Shown here piece by piece: positions 48,211 to 59,327 of a DNA stretch of 64,000 nucleotides (positions within the stretch are counted from its first letter, which is position 1; each line of letters opens with the position of its first letter). The position numbers were made by a program, and so were the translations under genes. Source of the stretch: Streptomyces sp. NBC_01498 (lineage in GTDB: Bacteria > Actinomycetota > Actinomycetes > Streptomycetales > Streptomycetaceae). Below the pieces are notes generated by a model. That model saw only the letters and a list, made by a program, of their open reading frames with translations, searched no databases and was not told the DNA's origin. The stretch spans positions 6,863,501 through 6,927,500 of the forward strand of contig NZ_CP109598.1 of NCBI RefSeq assembly GCF_036327775.1, written 5' to 3'.

Positions 48211-48328
48211 TAACATAAGTGGTTTGTCCGGGAAGGGTTTTCGGGGTGTTCGGGACGAGAGGCCGGGCCGTTTCCGGGTACTCCGGGCACGTACGTTCCC
48301 TTCCCGCCGTCGGGAGAGGACTGAACGA

Positions 48329-50821
48329 ATGACAGCATCCGCGCACAACGTCGAGACCATCGAGGTGGTGGGCGCGCGCACCAACAACCTCCGTGATGTC
48401 ACCGTGAGCATCCCCAAGGGACAGGTGGTCGCCTTCACCGGGGTCAGCGGCAGCGGCAAGACCTCGTTAGCGATCGACACCCTGCACAGCGAGGCTCAAC
48501 TCCGCTATCTGGAGGGGCTGTCACCGTTCGTCCGGCAGTACATCACCCAGCGCAACCGCCCCAAGGTGGACCGCATCCTCGGTCTCGGCGCGACCCTCGC
48601 CGTCGATCAGCGCCGGCTCAACCGCAACCCCCGGTCCACCGTCGCCACCATCACCGGCATCGACGGCCACCTCGGACTGCTGTACTCCCGGCTGCCCGGC
48701 ATCGGCCCCGACACCGTTCCCGGCGACGGACACCTCTCCACGGCCCACTTCGACCGGCACACCCCCGAGGGAAGCTGCGCCGACTGTCACGGCGTCGGTG
48801 GCCGCTGGCAGGCACGCGAAGAACTCATCATCACCCAACCGGAGTTGCCCCTCTTCGAAGGAGCCTCCCCCTGGTACGCGAAGTGGCGGTCCGGAGAGCA
48901 CGCGTTCATCCCCGCCCTCGCCGAGAAACGCGGTGTGGACCTCGCCCGGCCCTGGCAGTCGCTGCCCGAGGGCTTCCGGCACAACGTGCTGTACGGCACG
49001 GGTGACGAGAAGATCGAGGCCACCGTCGACATGCCGAACAAGAACGAGACCTCCTCCTGGACGTACACCTCCAGCGAGCCGCTGCGCGGCGCGCTCGCCG
49101 AGGTGGAACGGGTCTTCGCCAAGGCCGCGACGCCCAGCGCCAAGGAGCGCTACCTGCCGTACATGCGCAAGATGCCCTGCACCACCTGCGGCGGCACCGG
49201 CTACGACGCCATCGCCCGGTCGGTACGGCTCGGCGGGCTCGCCTACCCCGAGCTGCTGGAGGTCGACGTCCGCGAGGTGCGCGCCTGGGGGGAGCGCGTC
49301 ACCGCCGGACTCGGCACCGGACAGCGCGCGGTGGGCGAGCCCCTGCTCCAGGACCTGGCCCGCAGACTCCGGGTGCTGGACCGCCTCGGCCTGGCCCACC
49401 TCCAGCTCTCCCGGGGCGCGGCCACCCTGTCCGGCGGCGAACTCCAGCGCACCCGGCTCGCCGCGCAGCTCAGCACCGAACTCAGCGACATCATCTTCGT
49501 CCTCGACGAACCGGGCACCGGCCTGCACCCGGCGGACAAGGCGCATCTGCTGGACATCGCGCTGGAACTGCGCGCGGCCGGGAACACCGTGCTGCTGGTC
49601 GAGCACGACCCGGAACTCATCGCCCGCGCCGACTGGGTGATCGACATGGGGCCGGGCGCCGGGCGGCTCGGCGGCGAGGTCCTCGTCTCCGGCACCCCCG
49701 ACGACGTCGCCGCGCACCCGACATCGCTGACCGGGCACTACCTCGCGGGGAAGGGGCCGCGCCTGCGCCGCTCCCGGCGGCCGGTTGGGGACCGTACCGC
49801 CTGGGTCGAGCTGCACGGGCTGTCCGCGCACAACGTGACCGCGGACCTGGTCCGCTTCCCCATGGGCCGGCTGACCTGTCTGACCGGGGTCAGCGGCAGC
49901 GGCAAGAGCAGCCTGCTCGGCGCGCTCGGCGCCGGGATGGAGGCGGTCCTGAACGGCACGGCGGCCGACACCGTGCGCCGGGTCACCGGAGGCGACCGCT
50001 TCAGCTGGGTCGCCGTGGTCGACCAGGAGCCGATCGGCCGGACCCCCCGGTCCAACCCCGCCACGTACAGCAAGGCCTTCGACATCGTCCGCAAGCTGTT
50101 CGCGGAGACCGACGAGGCGCGCAAGCGCGGCGTCAACGCCTCCTGGTTCTCATTCAACACGGCGAACGGCGGACGCTGCGAGACGTGTACCGGGTACGGC
50201 CGCAAGCTGGTCAACATGCACTTCCTGCCGGACGTGTGGGTGGTCTGCGACGCCTGCGAGGGCCGCCGCTACACACCGGAGGCCCTGGAGATCACCTACC
50301 AGGGGCTGGCCATCGACGGGGTGCTGGAGCTGACCGTCGCCGAGGCCGTGGAACGCCTCACGAAACCACGGCAGTTGGCGGAGGCGCTGGAGGCGCTGGA
50401 CCGGGTCGGCCTCGGCTATCTGCAACTCGGCCAGAACGCGACGGAACTCTCCGGCGGCGAGGCGCAGCGGCTGAAACTGGCCTCGGCGATCCAGCGGGGC
50501 GCGGCCGGGCGCAAGGCCGGACTGGTCGTTCTCGACGAGCCGGTCTCCGGGCTGCACCCTTCGGACATCCAGCGCATGGTGGACGCCTTCGACCTGCTGC
50601 TGGACTCGGGCAACACGGTGGTCGTCGCCGAGCACGACATCCCGGTCGCCGCCTCCGCGGACTGGGTGATCGACCTGGGGCCGGGCGCGGGCCCGGACGG
50701 CGGGGCGGTCGTCGCGGCGGGCACCCCCGAGGACGTCGCGGACGCGGACACCCCGACGGCGGGCTTCTTCCGCCGGTACGCGGCGGGCCTGCCGCTGCTG
50801 GGGGAGCCCGGCGAGAGCTGA
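48329..50821 (+). CDS. UvrA-like ATPase, drug self-resistance type
   Basis: An 830-residue duplicated ABC ATPase, shorter than housekeeping UvrA (about 940-1000 residues). ATG 48329 after GGGAGAGGA. Walker [10 protein letters not shown] near residue 38 and GVSGSGKSS near 520; signatures [12 protein letters not shown] (about 370) and [12 protein letters not shown] (about 707); DEPGTGLHP and DEPVSGLHP Walker B/D-loops. Zinc modules remain: [17 protein letters not shown] and CETCTGYG. It lacks an obvious UvrB-binding insertion, as do class IIb UvrA-like proteins (for example DrrC). Such genes give resistance to DNA-damaging antibiotics made by the same organism. Codon use is like the neighbours. 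Confidence 0.85.
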
Positions 50822-54278: not shown

Positions 54279-55298
54279 ATGACCGCGCATCCGCCGGAAC
54301 CGCTTCGCGCACCGGCCGCCCCGGAGCCGCCTGCCCCGCCGGAGCCGCCCGCCTCCCCGGAACCCCCGTCCGCCACGACGTCACCGGCCGTCCCGGACCC
54401 GGACGACCTGGAATCCCTGCTGAGCATCCGCCACTTCGAGAACCTGCTGCTGCGGATGTTCGCCGAGGGCAGGCTCAACGGCACCACCCACACCTGTCTG
54501 GGACAGGAGTACGTGCCGGTGGCGCTGGCCCCGCTGCTGGCGGGCGACCACGTCCTCAGCAACCACCGGGGCCACGGCCACTACCTGGCCCTGTTCCGGG
54601 ACCCCGCCGGACTGCTCGCGGAGATCATGGGCCGGGCCGGCGCGGTGTGTTCGGGCGTCGGCGGCAGCCAGCACATCCGCCGCGAGGGCTACCTCTCCAC
54701 CGGCGTCCAGGGCCAGAGCCTGCCGCTGGCCGTCGGCATCGGTCTGCGCTGCAAGCGCGTCGGGTCCGGCCGGATCGCCGCCGCGTTCGTCGGTGACGGC
54801 ACCTGGGGCGAGGGAGCGGTGTACGAGGCGCTCAACATGGCCGCGCTGTGGCGGTCGCCGGTCCTGGTGGTCGTCGAGCACAACGGGGTCGCCCAGTCCA
54901 CCCCGTCGCACCTCCAGATGGCCGGTTCGATCGCGGACCGGGCCGCCGCCTTCGGCATCGACTTCCTGGAGATAACCGGCCATCAGGTGCCGGAGATCCG
55001 GGAGCGGCTGGCCCCCGTGGTCCGCCGGGTCCGCGAGGAACACCGCCCGGCCGTCGTGCAGTTCACCACCCACCGGCTCGGGCCGCACAGCAAGGGCGAC
55101 GACACCCGCCCCCGGGAGGAGGTGGACCGCCTCTGGGACGACGACTGGCACCGGGAGCTGACCGAACGGCTGGGCGAGCCGTTCCGGGAGCTCGACGCGC
55201 GGATCCGCGCCGACATGGAAGAGCTGGCCCGGGAGGTGGAGGCACGGCCGCCCGCCGCGTGGACGGGGTCCGGTCTCCCGGACACGAGGATGGAGTAG
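54279..55298 (+). CDS. Thiamine-diphosphate dehydrogenase E1-alpha-like subunit
   Basis: A 339-residue PDH/BCKDH E1-alpha-type protein. AGGGGGG precedes ATG 54279. The first 40 residues are Pro/Glu-rich. The ThDP motif starts at Gly172: GDGTWGEGAVYEALNMAALW, ending EHNGVAQSTPS (the conserved Asn and Ser). The early HFENLLLRMFAEGRLNG and TCLGQEYVPVALA (substrate-entry helix) match the family. Its partner, E1-beta, is fused to E2 in the gene two positions downstream. An ACP gene lies between. This layout is that of NapB/NapD and QncN/QncL, in which a ketose phosphate supplies a two-carbon hydroxyacyl unit; pyruvate use is not excluded. Confidence 0.88.
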   Translation: MTAHPPEPLRAPAAPEPPAPPEPPASPEPPSATTSPAVPDPDDLESLLSIRHFENLLLRMFAEGRLNGTTHTCLGQEYVPVALAPLLAGDHVLSNHRGHGHYLALFRDPAGLLAEIMGRAGAVCSGVGGSQHIRREGYLSTGVQGQSLPLAVGIGLRCKRVGSGRIAAAFVGDGTWGEGAVYEALNMAALWRSPVLVVVEHNGVAQSTPSHLQMAGSIADRAAAFGIDFLEITGHQVPEIRERLAPVVRRVREEHRPAVVQFTTHRLGPHSKGDDTRPREEVDRLWDDDWHRELTERLGEPFRELDARIRADMEELAREVEARPPAAWTGSGLPDTRME

Positions 55299-55300
55299 CC

Positions 55301-55558
55301 ATGGCCGAACCGAGCGAGAGCACGGAACCGACCGGACTGACGGACCTGGTGGCCGACGTGCTCCAGGTCGCCGCCGCCGAGGTGACCGACGACACCGGGC
55401 CCGCCACCTCGGCGGCCTGGACCAGCCTGCGGCACGTCCAGATCGTCGCCCGGGTCGAGAAGACCTACGGCATACGGCTCACCGCCCGTGAGGTACGCGG
55501 CTGCCGGAGCGTCGGCGCCCTGCGCGGGGTGCTGGCGGAGAAGCGGGAGACACCGTGA
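55301..55558 (+). CDS. Discrete acyl carrier protein
   Basis: An 85-residue carrier protein, starting two bases after the E1-alpha stop and overlapping the next gene's GTG by four bases. The 4'-phosphopantetheine site is Ser42 in AWTSLRHVQIVARVEKTYG; the usual DSL is TSL, with a preceding Trp. Helix II and the loop GIRLTAREVRGCRSVGALRGVLAE are as in ACPs. The position between E1-alpha and E1-beta/E2 suggests that it, not CoA, accepts the acyl group from the lipoyl arm. A separate phosphopantetheinyl transferase is not in the window. Confidence 0.85.
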   Translation: MAEPSESTEPTGLTDLVADVLQVAAAEVTDDTGPATSAAWTSLRHVQIVARVEKTYGIRLTAREVRGCRSVGALRGVLAEKRETP

Positions 55559-57723
55559 GCGGGCCCGCACCCCGGGTGGTGGAGACCCTCAACGGCGCCC
55601 TGGTCCGGCTGTTCGACGAACGGCCCTCGCTGCACCTGCTCGGGGAGGACGTACTCGACCCGTACGGCGGCGCCTTCAAGGTGACCCGCGGCCTGTCCAC
55701 CCGCCACCCCGACCGGGTGCTCGGCACCCCGATCAGCGAGGCGGGCATCACCGGCGTGGCCGGCGGTCTGGCCCTCGCCGGTGACCAGGCGATCGTCGAG
55801 GTGATGTTCGGCGACTTCGCCGCGCTCGCCTTCGACCAGGTGCTCAACCTGATCTCCAAGTCGGTGACCATGTACGGGGACCGGGTGCCGATGCCGGTCG
55901 TGGTGCGCTGCCCGGTCGGCGGCAACCGGGGGTACGGCCCCACCCACAGCCAGAGCCTCCAGAAGCACTTCGTGGGCATTCCCAACCTGGCGCTGTACGA
56001 GACGAGCCCGTTCCACGACCCGTACGCGCAGCTCGCCGAGGGCCTCGACCACGGGCCCGCGATCCTCTTCGAGGACAAGGTCCTCTACACCCGGCGGATG
56101 TACCGGGACGGGACGGTGGACGAGCACCACCGGTACGAGCTGCTCGGCGGCCCGACCGGCTGGGCGCACGTCACCCCCGTGGACGCGGCCCCCGCCGACG
56201 TGGTGCTGATCTGCCCCGGCGGGACCGCGCACCGGGCGCTCGAAGCCGCCCGGCTGCTGCGCGACCGGGGACTGACCGCACACGTACTGGTACCGGCCCG
56301 GCTCTACCCGCCCGACCTGGAACCCGTGCTGCCGCTGCTGGCGGGCGCCCGGCTCGTCGCGGTCGCGGAGGAGAGCACCGCGGGCGGCACCTGGGGCGCC
56401 GAGATCGCCGCCCGGGTGCACGCGCGGATCTGGGCGGAACTGCGCGCGCCCGTGCTGCTGTTGTCGTCGGCGGACTCGGTGGTGCCGACCGCCCCGCACC
56501 TGGAGGCGGAGGTACTGCTGGGGGCCGGGCGGATCGCCCAGGAGATCGAGGCCGCCGCCGCCCGCACGCTGCCGGCCCGCGCGCCGGCCGCGCCCGCGGG
56601 GCCCGTCGCCGCCGCCGGGCCCCTGGTGGACCCCGGCTCGCACGCGTCCGCGCCGGCCGCCGCAGCCCCGGACACCGTCGCGCCGGAAGGCGTCGAGCCC
56701 GTGGCCGGGGTGCCGGTCAGCATGCCCAAGCTCAACAACAACGACACCGACTACCTGGTGCTCCAGTGGCTCGCCGAGGACGGCGCGGAGGTCGCCGAGG
56801 GCGACCCGCTGGTCGAGGTGGAGACCTCCAAGGCGGTCGAGGAGATCGCCGCCCCGGCCGCCGGGCACCTGCGCGTGCACGCCGCCGAAGGCACCGAGAT
56901 CGGCGTCGGGAAGCTCCTCGCCGAACTGTTCGCCGAACCGCCCACGACCCCGTCCGCCCCTCCGGCCGCCACCTCCCCGGGCGCCACGGCCGCGGCCGTG
57001 CCCGAACCGCCCGCCGCCGCCCCGCCCGGACCCGACGCCCGCACCCATGTGCTCGACCGGGCCCAGCAGGGCACCGCCGCCGTCGTCACCCGCGCCCACC
57101 AGGAGGTGCCCGCCGCCTTCGCCGCCGTCGAGGTCGAGGTGGACGCGGTACTGGCCCGGCTGCGGACGCTGTCCGACGACACCGGCGCCGAGGTCGGCCT
57201 CCCGGAGGCGGTGGTGAAGGCCGTGGCCGCCGCCCACCCCGCGTTCCCGCACCTGTTCGGCACCCTCCTGGACGAGCGGACCGTACGACTCGCCGACACC
57301 GTGGACATCGGAGTCACCGTGGACGCCGGGAACGGCCTCTACATCCCCGTGCTCCGCGACTGCGCCGCCCGTTCCCTCACCGACCTCTCCGACGACCTCA
57401 TGGAGTTCCGGATGAAGGCGTTCCGCGGTGAGTTCACCGCGGGCGAGCTGTCCGGCGGCTCCCTGAGCGTGTCCCTGAACACGGAGCCCGGCGTCCTGGT
57501 CGTCCAGCCGATCGTCATGTGGCCGCAGCTGTGCATGGTCTCGGTCGGCGGCCCGCTCACCCGCCTCGTCCTCACCGAGGGGACACCCACCCCCGCCACC
57601 GCGGTCACCCTCGGTCTCGCCTACGACCACCGGGTCGTCAACGGCCGGGAGGCGGTCGCGTTCCTGCGCGTCGTCGCGGACGCCCTCCACGACCCGGAAC
57701 AGCTCGACAAACTCATCGACTGA
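55555..57723 (+). CDS. Fused E1-beta / lipoyl / E2 acyltransferase
   Basis: A 722-residue fusion from GTG 55555. Residues 1-330 are E1-beta-like (GEDVLDPYGGAFKVTRGL, ISEAGITGVAGGLALAGDQ, FGDFAALAFDQ, CPVGGNRGYGPTHSQS). After an Ala/Pro linker comes a lipoyl domain (388-460) with acceptor Lys426 in VETSKAVEE. A second Pro/Ala linker leads to the acyltransferase (495-722), ending YDHRVVNGREAVAFLR. The E2 HxxxDG catalytic motif reads His692-Arg-Val-Val-Asn-Gly: Asp is Asn. No peripheral-subunit-binding (E3) domain is seen, so lipoamide reoxidation is not obviously built in, which fits a non-oxidative transfer of a ketose-derived two-carbon unit to the ACP. Pathway assignment is inferred. Confidence 0.88.
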   Translation: MSGPAPRVVETLNGALVRLFDERPSLHLLGEDVLDPYGGAFKVTRGLSTRHPDRVLGTPISEAGITGVAGGLALAGDQAIVEVMFGDFAALAFDQVLNLISKSVTMYGDRVPMPVVVRCPVGGNRGYGPTHSQSLQKHFVGIPNLALYETSPFHDPYAQLAEGLDHGPAILFEDKVLYTRRMYRDGTVDEHHRYELLGGPTGWAHVTPVDAAPADVVLICPGGTAHRALEAARLLRDRGLTAHVLVPARLYPPDLEPVLPLLAGARLVAVAEESTAGGTWGAEIAARVHARIWAELRAPVLLLSSADSVVPTAPHLEAEVLLGAGRIAQEIEAAAARTLPARAPAAPAGPVAAAGPLVDPGSHASAPAAAAPDTVAPEGVEPVAGVPVSMPKLNNNDTDYLVLQWLAEDGAEVAEGDPLVEVETSKAVEEIAAPAAGHLRVHAAEGTEIGVGKLLAELFAEPPTTPSAPPAATSPGATAAAVPEPPAAAPPGPDARTHVLDRAQQGTAAVVTRAHQEVPAAFAAVEVEVDAVLARLRTLSDDTGAEVGLPEAVVKAVAAAHPAFPHLFGTLLDERTVRLADTVDIGVTVDAGNGLYIPVLRDCAARSLTDLSDDLMEFRMKAFRGEFTAGELSGGSLSVSLNTEPGVLVVQPIVMWPQLCMVSVGGPLTRLVLTEGTPTPATAVTLGLAYDHRVVNGREAVAFLRVVADALHDPEQLDKLID

Positions 57724-57742
57724 CCCTGAGGAGTGAGCGCCA

Positions 57743-58747
57743 GTGGAGTACGGGTTGACCGCCTTCGGTGTGGCCCTGGGCGAAGAGGCCGCCGTCAAGG
57801 ACGTCGTGGCCGAGTACACCGAGGACGTCGAGCGCGTCCTCGGATACGGCTACGAGTACATCCACCGGGCCCCGCCCGACGTGAGCGTCACCGACCTCGC
57901 CGTCGACGCGGGCCGGCGGGCCCTCGCGTCGGTGAACCCGCGCGAGGTCGACCTGCTCGTCCTCGCCCTCACCGACCTCGCCGACCACCTCTACTGGGAC
58001 GCGGCGGCCCAGGTCCAGTGGGCCCTCGGACTCAGCCACGCCGAGGCGGTGCTCGTCGACCAGGGCTGCGTGGGCGGAGTCACCGCGTTCGACACCGTCG
58101 CGGGCCGGTTCGCCACCCACCCCGGCTACCGGACGGCGCTGGTCATCGGCGCCAACCGGACCGTGGAGGCGTACTGGAACAGGCTGGACACCCACTCGCT
58201 GCTCTTCTCGGACGGGGCCGCCGCCGCCGTCGCCGTACGCGACGCGCCCACGCTGCGCTGGCGGTCCTCCTACGCGGAGACCGACGGCCGGTACGCCGAC
58301 TTCTTCCGGATGGACGTCGGCGGCGCCCGGCAGCCCTTCGTACCCGGCACCGGAACACCCGCCGTACGCGACGCCTGGGACGTGGTCGAGCGCTTCGACC
58401 ACGACGCCGAACGGCTGGCCGCCTACGCCGAGGAGATCGACGAGCGCACCGCGCGCGCCGTCCACCGGGCCTGCCGCCAGGCCGACTGCGACGAGGAGAG
58501 CCTGGCCCGGCTGCTCCTGCTCAACGACAACGCCCGGGTACTGGCGGCGCAGGCCGAACTGATCGGGGTGCCGCTGGAGCGGACCAACGCCCGACTGGCC
58601 GCCCGGAACGGGCACTTCGGTGCCGCCGACCACCTGTTCGCCCTCGCCCGGCTGGAGGAGGACGGGGAGCTGGCGCCCGGGGACCTCGTGGCCCTCGCGG
58701 CCAACGGCCGGGGCATGCACTGGGCGTGCGCGGTCCTCCAGTGCTGA
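57743..58747 (+). CDS. KAS III-like condensing or acyltransferase enzyme with altered active site
   Basis: A 334-residue thiolase-fold protein (GTG 57743 after GGAG). The nucleophile is Cys109 in VDQGCVGGVTAFD. By alignment to FabH, the His of the PHQAN motif corresponds to Asn261 (LLLNDNARVL), and the Asn of HGNTSAAS corresponds to His291 (RNGHFGAAD), so His and Asn appear exchanged. The C-terminal GDLVALAANGRGMHWACAVL is the usual GG(F)xW end. The changed triad suggests acyl transfer or an unusual condensation instead of standard decarboxylative chain initiation. As the last gene of the E1/ACP/E2 operon (19 bases after the E2 stop), it likely uses the ACP-bound unit. Partner unknown. Confidence 0.85.
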   Translation: MEYGLTAFGVALGEEAAVKDVVAEYTEDVERVLGYGYEYIHRAPPDVSVTDLAVDAGRRALASVNPREVDLLVLALTDLADHLYWDAAAQVQWALGLSHAEAVLVDQGCVGGVTAFDTVAGRFATHPGYRTALVIGANRTVEAYWNRLDTHSLLFSDGAAAAVAVRDAPTLRWRSSYAETDGRYADFFRMDVGGARQPFVPGTGTPAVRDAWDVVERFDHDAERLAAYAEEIDERTARAVHRACRQADCDEESLARLLLLNDNARVLAAQAELIGVPLERTNARLAARNGHFGAADHLFALARLEEDGELAPGDLVALAANGRGMHWACAVLQC

Positions 58748-58820: not shown

Positions 58821-59327
58821 ATGAGTCGTCACCCCGCCCGGCGCGCCCTGATGGCCGCCGCGCTGGTCTGCGCGGGCCTGGGCCTGGTGTCCTGCGCGTC
58901 CACGCCCGACCCGGACGCCCAGTCCGCCGGCTCCGCAGACACCCCCGCCTGCCGGATGTTCAAACCGGTCTCCGTCGACCTCGGTCTCGGTGAACCCTCG
59001 GTGAGCCAGATGGCCGGCGACGGCTGCACCGCCCACACCCACGAGTTCGGCACCCTCACCCTCACCCTGCGGGACCGTCCCTACGAGGCGGTGGCCACCG
59101 GGGACGGCAAGCGGAGCACGATGAAGTTCGGCGAGTACGACGCCGTGATGCTGATGGGTTCCCTGAACGGTGTCTGCAAGATCTTCCTGGACACCGGGGA
59201 GAAGGACAGCGTGGAACTGCGGCTCGGCCGGACCACGGCGATGACCCCGCAGGTGTGCACCTCCCTGAAGAAGGCGGCGGGGAAGCTCGCGGCCTCGCTT
59301 CCCGCCCCGACCGCAGCCGCCGGCTGA
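58821..59327 (+). CDS. DUF3558-like lipoprotein
   Basis: A 168-residue predicted lipoprotein: MSRHPARRALMAAALVCAGLGLVSC with cysteine 25 in LVS|C, then an Asp/Ala/Ser linker. The body ACRMFKPVSVDLGLGEPSVSQMAGDGCTAHTHEFGTLTLTLRDRPYEA contains a Cys pair and pattern like DUF3558 of actinobacteria. Its function is unknown. The ATG has GGAG upstream. Position 74 bases after the KAS III-like gene, on the same strand, suggests co-expression, but a role in the pathway is not evident. Confidence 0.8.
   Translation: MSRHPARRALMAAALVCAGLGLVSCASTPDPDAQSAGSADTPACRMFKPVSVDLGLGEPSVSQMAGDGCTAHTHEFGTLTLTLRDRPYEAVATGDGKRSTMKFGEYDAVMLMGSLNGVCKIFLDTGEKDSVELRLGRTTAMTPQVCTSLKKAAGKLAASLPAPTAAAG

Follow-up and report, generated by a model that had tools for sequence, protein, structure and literature searches.

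Four consecutive genes in a stretch of the Streptomyces sp. NBC_01498 genome are, judged by their sequences, very likely the napB-C-D-E block of a naphthyridinomycin-type tetrahydroisoquinoline (THIQ) nonribosomal peptide synthetase (NRPS) cluster, in which they would make a glycolyl unit and hand it over. The stretch, here called the window, comprises 64,000 nucleotides (bases 6863501-6927500 of a 7.27-Mb single-contig genome), and the THIQ cluster extends from about 48.3 kb to about 101 kb, past the window end. The block encodes a dehydrogenase-type E1-alpha, an acyl carrier protein (ACP), a fusion of E1-beta, lipoyl and E2 parts, and a protein related to 3-oxoacyl-synthase III (KAS III):

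54279-55298, + strand: NapB-type E1-alpha, the thiamine diphosphate (ThDP)-binding half; ATG start, 339 aa; Pfam E1_dh 5.6e-37; GDG at 172
55301-55558, + strand: NapC-type ACP; ATG start, 85 aa; PP-binding 4.6e-07; Ser42 within AAWTSLRH
55555-57723, + strand: NapD-type E1-beta/lipoyl/E2 fusion; GTG start, 722 aa; Transket_pyr, Transketolase_C, Biotin_lipoyl, 2-oxoacid_dh (2.4e-38); lipoyl Lys426, E2 acyltransferase His692 and Asn696
57743-58747, + strand: NapE/DinQ-type KAS III-like protein; GTG start, 334 aa; ACP_syn_III_C 1.1e-13, ACP_syn_III 2.5e-06

An earlier reading, made from the sequence alone, had placed four genes here, and Pfam searches and translations verified their places on the plus strand, their domains and the residues GDG 172, Ser42 and Lys426. 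Its spacing of 2 to 20 bases holds for the gaps between E1-alpha and ACP (2 bases) and between fusion and KAS III (19 bases), whereas the ACP and fusion genes overlap by 4 bases (GTGA). Because the order B-C-D-E on a single strand recurs in 12 of the 13 loci recruited from genome_contigs by the KAS III-like protein, the block is no chance arrangement; in the thirteenth locus (L045) the contig starts within the fusion gene, just upstream of KAS III.

Table 1 of PMC7570522 lists as homologues of the dnacin proteins NapR1 (UV repair), NapA (monooxygenase), NapB, NapC, NapD, NapE (3-oxoacyl-synthase III), NapG (peptidase), NapR3, NapH, NapI, NapJ (condensation, adenylation, peptidyl carrier protein and reductase domains, C-A-PCP-RE), NapK (MbtH), NapL, NapM, NapN (acyl ligase and PCP, AL-PCP), NapO (three modules) and NapU. 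All 17 Nap types of that table are matched in kind here, the direct comparison with a Nap sequence being that with NapW; the window contains the R1, A, B, C, D, E, G and R3 types, and the H, I, J, K, L, M, N and O types follow beyond it. The block is recognised as a THIQ cluster feature by its gene order and by its KAS III-like protein, which is 72.5% identical and 80.6% similar to Actinosynnema P0017 (336 aa), a margin matching the 72/80 given for DinQ (336 aa) and NapE in the same table. The sequence-only reading named no characterised system that pairs such a set with a KAS III-like enzyme. Yet NapE of Streptomyces lusitanus and DinQ of Actinosynnema, as listed in that table, are this very pairing; it is a published annotation, and the NBC_01498 locus is a further copy of an already known system.

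The same reading had proposed looking for biosynthetic genes past 64 kb, and NRPS genes do lie directly beyond the window end. Genes in this part were called by codon-position G+C, with the window coordinates continued:

64092-66692: adenylation protein, NapH type (AMP-binding)
66779-67783: TauD-type non-heme iron oxygenase, NapI type (Pfam)
67854-72305: C-A-PCP-reductase NRPS, NapJ type (Pfam NAD_binding_4)
72339-72539: MbtH protein, NapK type (Pfam)
72586-75687: NapL-like module, C (9.1e-92) and PCP (1.6e-16) (Pfam)
75684-76469: thioesterase, NapM type
76774-78756: ligase-PCP, NapN type (AMP-binding, PP-binding)
78800-88150: NapO-like NRPS frame, 3116 aa; three A3, three HHxxxDG and three PCP motifs
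88993-90060: hydroxylase matching the 3-methyl-L-tyrosine peroxygenase 6vdp, SfmD (1.3e-106; no Pfam match); followed by two Methyltransf_2 proteins (Pfam)
95291-96904: berberine-bridge FAD oxidase, NapU-like (Pfam); followed by a further methyltransferase and then a transporter
100227-101162: short-chain dehydrogenase/reductase (SDR), NapW-like; 311 aa, 936 bp with stop

Further THIQ features found are the NapJ-type NRPS together with the NapI-type oxygenase and MbtH; the fatty-acyl leader start, with the NapN ligase-PCP, three-module NapO, NapG peptidase and secreted oxidase NapU; and probable self-resistance genes of the UvrA-like and NapW types. The NapW-like SDR matched 7bsx at 3e-152, gapless over all 257 residues searched; 7BTM is NapW and 7BSX is NapW-NADP (PMC8648761). 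A hand count on the alignment to the NapW crystal chain gave 219 of 257 identical residues (85%) and 38 differences. This value rules out identity with the S. lusitanus NRRL 8034 cluster, and because the SDR is only 85% identical to NapW, the locus is regarded as an orthologous cluster in another strain.

Proposed glycolyl-ACP formation by the dehydrogenase-like proteins

The E1-alpha shares 67-93% identity with 14 further cassette E1-alphas, but only 27-33% with three E1-alphas of its own genome that adjoin ordinary E2 genes, and 22% with a long own-genome frame of 1399 aa (1239 aa in the locus) matching E1_dh and 2-oxoacid_dh. These identities, taken against cassette and own-genome E1-alphas, agree with the earlier assignment to the NapB/NapD (QncN/QncL) type. 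For the fusion, 134 sequences were aligned, comprising the 120 listed of 622 database matches and 14 locus copies, two sets that partly overlap. The E2 motif reads HxxxNG (Asn at residue 696) in all 134, whereas among five other E2-type matches of the same genome three carry HxxxDG, as DHRLVDG, DHRPVDG and DHRVCDG; of the remaining two, one is the long fused frame, with DHRVIQG, and the other, L086, has no DHR in the frames read. An ordinary pyruvate or branched-chain complex is ruled out by the E1-alpha identities together with the E2 motif. As a guess, the change to HxxxNG may mark a switch from CoA to ACP. A loss of the lipoyl arm, considered for relatives lacking a precomputed PF00364 match and for L056, was rejected, as the lipoyl lysine column is K in 134/134 fusions. 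The ACP motif W[TS]S[LM] is present in 14/14 matched locus copies.

According to papers citing the original work, the Nap and Qnc sets of E1, E2 and ACP use a ketose phosphate to make a glycolyl unit. The glycolyl-ACP proposed in the sequence-only reading fits the cluster, with substrate and ACP product assigned by analogy to these sets. In a first step, E1 (the NapB-like protein and the E1-beta half of the NapD-like protein) would use ThDP to pick up a C2 unit from a ketose phosphate and load it onto the lipoyl arm; in a second, the E2 domain would transfer it to the NapC-like ACP, giving glycolyl-S-ACP. Both steps are published for Nap and Qnc, and by this analogy the pair would very probably operate here as well. 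It is barely credible that the cassette makes another short acyl-ACP, for example acetyl-ACP from pyruvate. E1 and E2 proteins of such a fold normally use 2-oxoacids, and the pyruvate E1 model TIGR03182 gives the E1-alpha 173.3 bits; however, this is far under the model cut-off of 393.85, identity to the E1-alphas of its own genome is low, the E2 motif is HxxxNG, and the cluster as a whole is of the nap and din kind.

Predicted role of the KAS III-like protein

The NapL-like module bears on how the glycolyl unit would enter the NRPS. Between its C and PCP domains no AMP-binding domain was found at E 1e-5 (Pfam). The module lacks the A3 pattern that the NapJ, NapH and NapN types contain and that NapO holds in three copies. 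At the site of the [NG]GKxD motif, which occurs in NapJ, in NapH and three times in NapO, it reads GGGPD. The lysine lost in GGGPD is a catalytic residue. A narrower pattern, [NG]GK[VLI]D, was discarded as a sign of decay, since NapO and NapN miss it too. The stretch nonetheless aligns to the NapO A domains at about 30%, and on this sequence evidence the NapL-like adenylation domain is a decayed one. The A domain of DinL is called inactive by the dnacin authors (PMC7570522), and a review describes the SF-1739 template Cya15 as likely carrying the glycol unit from the ACP. Because the NapL-like module appears unable to load itself, a loader is needed, and the KAS III-like protein is the obvious candidate.

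Cys109, His291 and Asp296 of the KAS III-like protein are each conserved in 120/120 aligned copies and in 21/21 more distant copies from the genus. The decarboxylating KAS III enzyme FabH has the triad Cys-His-Asn. In the HMMER alignment to Aquifex FabH, Cys109 is kept, whereas the His is replaced by Leu260 and the Asn by His291. The pattern is instead that of the Cys-His-Asp triad of ChlB3 and CerJ, with His and Asp 5 residues apart as in ChlB3, whose triad is Cys113, His296 and Asp301 and which transfers 6-methylsalicylic acid (6MSA) from ChlB1 to the ACP ChlB2. The KAS III-like protein is only 21-23% identical to ChlB3 (chlorothricin) and CerJ (cervimycin), and their substrates are 6-methylsalicyl and malonyl, unlike the glycolyl proposed here. 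We infer that the residue pattern favours acyl transfer over condensation; this residue-level argument for the predicted function is the new content of the present analysis. No published test of NapE or DinQ function was found in the open-licence literature searched, and the founding paper, Peng et al. 2012, or the paper on NapU, which lie outside that scope, may already contain one.

In a third step the NapE-like protein would thus accept glycolyl from the ACP on Cys109 and deliver it to the NapL-like module's PCP, with no C-C bond formed. Such a ChlB3/CerJ-type acyltransferase role is predicted as the somewhat better-favoured outcome. A true condensing enzyme joining glycolyl-ACP and malonyl-ACP is highly improbable: the KAS III fold and Pfam membership would allow it, and DpsC has the same GHxGxxD motif and condenses, but two residues of the FabH triad, His and Asn, are not kept, ChlB3 and CerJ have the nearest triad, and the THIQ pathway proposals drawn on name no malonyl unit. 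Another role, loading of the NapC-type ACP with a C2 acyl unit supplied by the lipoyl arm or by some other donor, is compatible with a Cys-His-Asp triad, which suits any thioester transfer, and ACP loading was suggested for DinQ by the dnacin authors (PMC7570522, section 2.3). It is the less likely role because the fusion already carries its own E2 acyltransferase domain. In addition, the scleric acid ACP is proposed to be loaded while KAS III is absent from the gene table of that cluster, and ACP loading would leave the NapL-like module without a known loader. Taken as a whole, loading of the ACP by the KAS III-like protein is unlikely.

Given transfer to the NapL-like PCP, a fourth step, as proposed for dnacin, would have the NapL C domain couple the glycolyl unit with the N-acyl leader peptide. 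The linkage is probably an ester through the glycolyl hydroxyl. The NapJ reductase domain would then release an aldehyde for the Pictet-Spengler reaction. One step becomes directly testable in this scheme, namely how glycolyl reaches an NRPS module that is seemingly unable to activate it. In a more general form, with the chances evenly balanced, NapE-type KAS III proteins may shuttle glycolyl from carrier to carrier, loading NRPS modules whose A domains are dead and letting the C domain build an ester. They would be present where glycolyl is the acceptor, absent where it is a donor only (scleric acid), and would also serve non-THIQ pathways such as L056/L089, described below.

Neighbouring genes and distribution

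The remaining genes of the cluster inside the window are:

48329-50821, + strand: UvrA-like protein of the NapR1 type, likely for self-resistance; reading frame open from 48155, start at 48329 probable; Pfam UvrA_DNA-bind 1.7e-13 and ABC_tran (piece 48326-50818); 78-94% vs L039, L041, L042, L044 and L047
51223-52488, - strand: calcineurin-like phosphoesterase; Metallophos 2.1e-13; 77-82% vs L039, L041, L042 and L044
52501-54015, - strand: FAD-dependent monooxygenase, NapA/DinX type; FAD_binding_3 4.1e-83; relatives of 60-91% in 10/13 loci (L039-L051)
58821-59327, + strand: small lipoprotein-like protein between KAS III and the M28 peptidase; 59-78% in L039-L045
59401-61872, - strand: M28 peptidase, NapG/DinC type; Peptidase_M28 7e-39; 64-85% in L039-L045 and L047
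61853-63844, - strand: Streptomyces antibiotic regulatory protein (SARP)/AfsR-like regulator, NapR3/DinR3 type; BTAD 1.2e-37, NB-ARC 1.1e-12; 63-91% in L039-L045 and L047

The phosphoesterase between UvrA and the monooxygenase is kept in four Streptomyces relatives, and the dnacin Table 1 (PMC7570522) names no counterpart. At E 0.01 the lipoprotein-like protein matched nothing in Pfam or NCBIfam; it is conserved in Streptomyces relatives and more weakly (38%, L047) in Umezawaea beigongshangensis.

A KAS III match at or below 1e-40 was found in 29 of 392 genomes drawn from the genus; in 6 genomes of this draw, counting the own genome, the identity is at least 87%. At 1e-85, matches were found in 6 of 297 family genomes and 4 of 394 class genomes, counting the own genome in draws that share some genomes; the two matches outside the family are 70% identical. 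The 13 genome_contigs loci come from Streptomyces, Umezawaea, Saccharothrix, Microbispora, Lentzea and Actinosynnema.

Among 25 further stretches around KAS III matches, with flanks mostly of about 10 kb or less per side, the complete B-C-D-E set in the same order was found in 4 (L056, L057, L091 and L095). NapB, NapC and NapD were not found in L060 (a truncated KAS III), L092 and L093, with KAS III at 56-58%, nor in any of the 18 loci with KAS III at or below 53% (L058, L059, L061-L075 and L094). The KAS III family is therefore wider than the cassette. L092 and L093 are from one assembly (G577) and perhaps one place seen twice; their KAS III-like protein is 58% identical, with NapB, NapC and NapD not found in about 19 kb. 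Among the scanned neighbours of the distant KAS III relatives there was no common acyl donor.

In L056/L089 (Streptomyces G294, C6:364500-391900) the cassette adjoins MbtH, an ornithine/lysine N-monooxygenase, an adenylation protein, a thioesterase, a B12 radical SAM protein and a serine hydroxymethyltransferase (SHMT). No UvrA, NapJ or NapN match was found within the stretches examined, and this is probably a non-THIQ use of the cassette. In L091 (Streptomyces G545, C8:12300-32200) it adjoins an NRPS, an MbtH match, thioesterases and a P450, with no UvrA or NapJ match in the 20 kb examined.

Comparison with known systems

The locus is a further Streptomyces locus likely for a DNA-alkylating THIQ antibiotic, with probable self-resistance genes. 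Besides the sources named above, literature passages from PMC6335953, PMC9268379, PMC9573744, PMC9570651, PMC5384830 and PMC11837247 were drawn on. The nap cluster of S. lusitanus NRRL 8034 has the same gene set in kind (NapB, NapC, NapD and NapE), and the 936-bp NapW-like gene has the length of the in-frame region deleted in the published napW mutant. The NBC_01498 fusion shares 86% identity with two fusions named S. niveus; the aclidinomycins are described as products of a Streptomyces niveus.

The dnacin B1 (din) cluster of Actinosynnema has the same cassette as DinU, DinT, DinS and DinQ, and shares UvrA, the peptidase, the SARP, the C-A-PCP-RE protein and a module 4 with an inactive A domain. 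It differs in that dnacin has a p-aminophenylalanine unit, whereas the genes found here point to a tyrosine-derived unit. Because a 6vdp-like peroxygenase match occurs together with two Methyltransf_2 proteins, that tyrosine unit would be methylated, and these tyrosine-modifying genes point to a naphthyridinomycin-like product rather than dnacin.

By description, the locus is also like those for quinocarcin (QncN, QncL and QncM) and SF-1739 (Cya), where an E1/E2/ACP set makes a glycolyl unit for a nonribosomal peptide. Homologues of QncN, QncL and QncM (SclQ1-4) are likewise proposed to supply a glycolic acid unit for scleric acid. That cluster, on the other hand, has separate E1-beta and E2 genes and no KAS III in its gene table, and glycolyl is proposed there as the acyl donor, not the acceptor, passing from glycolyl-ACP straight to the C domain.
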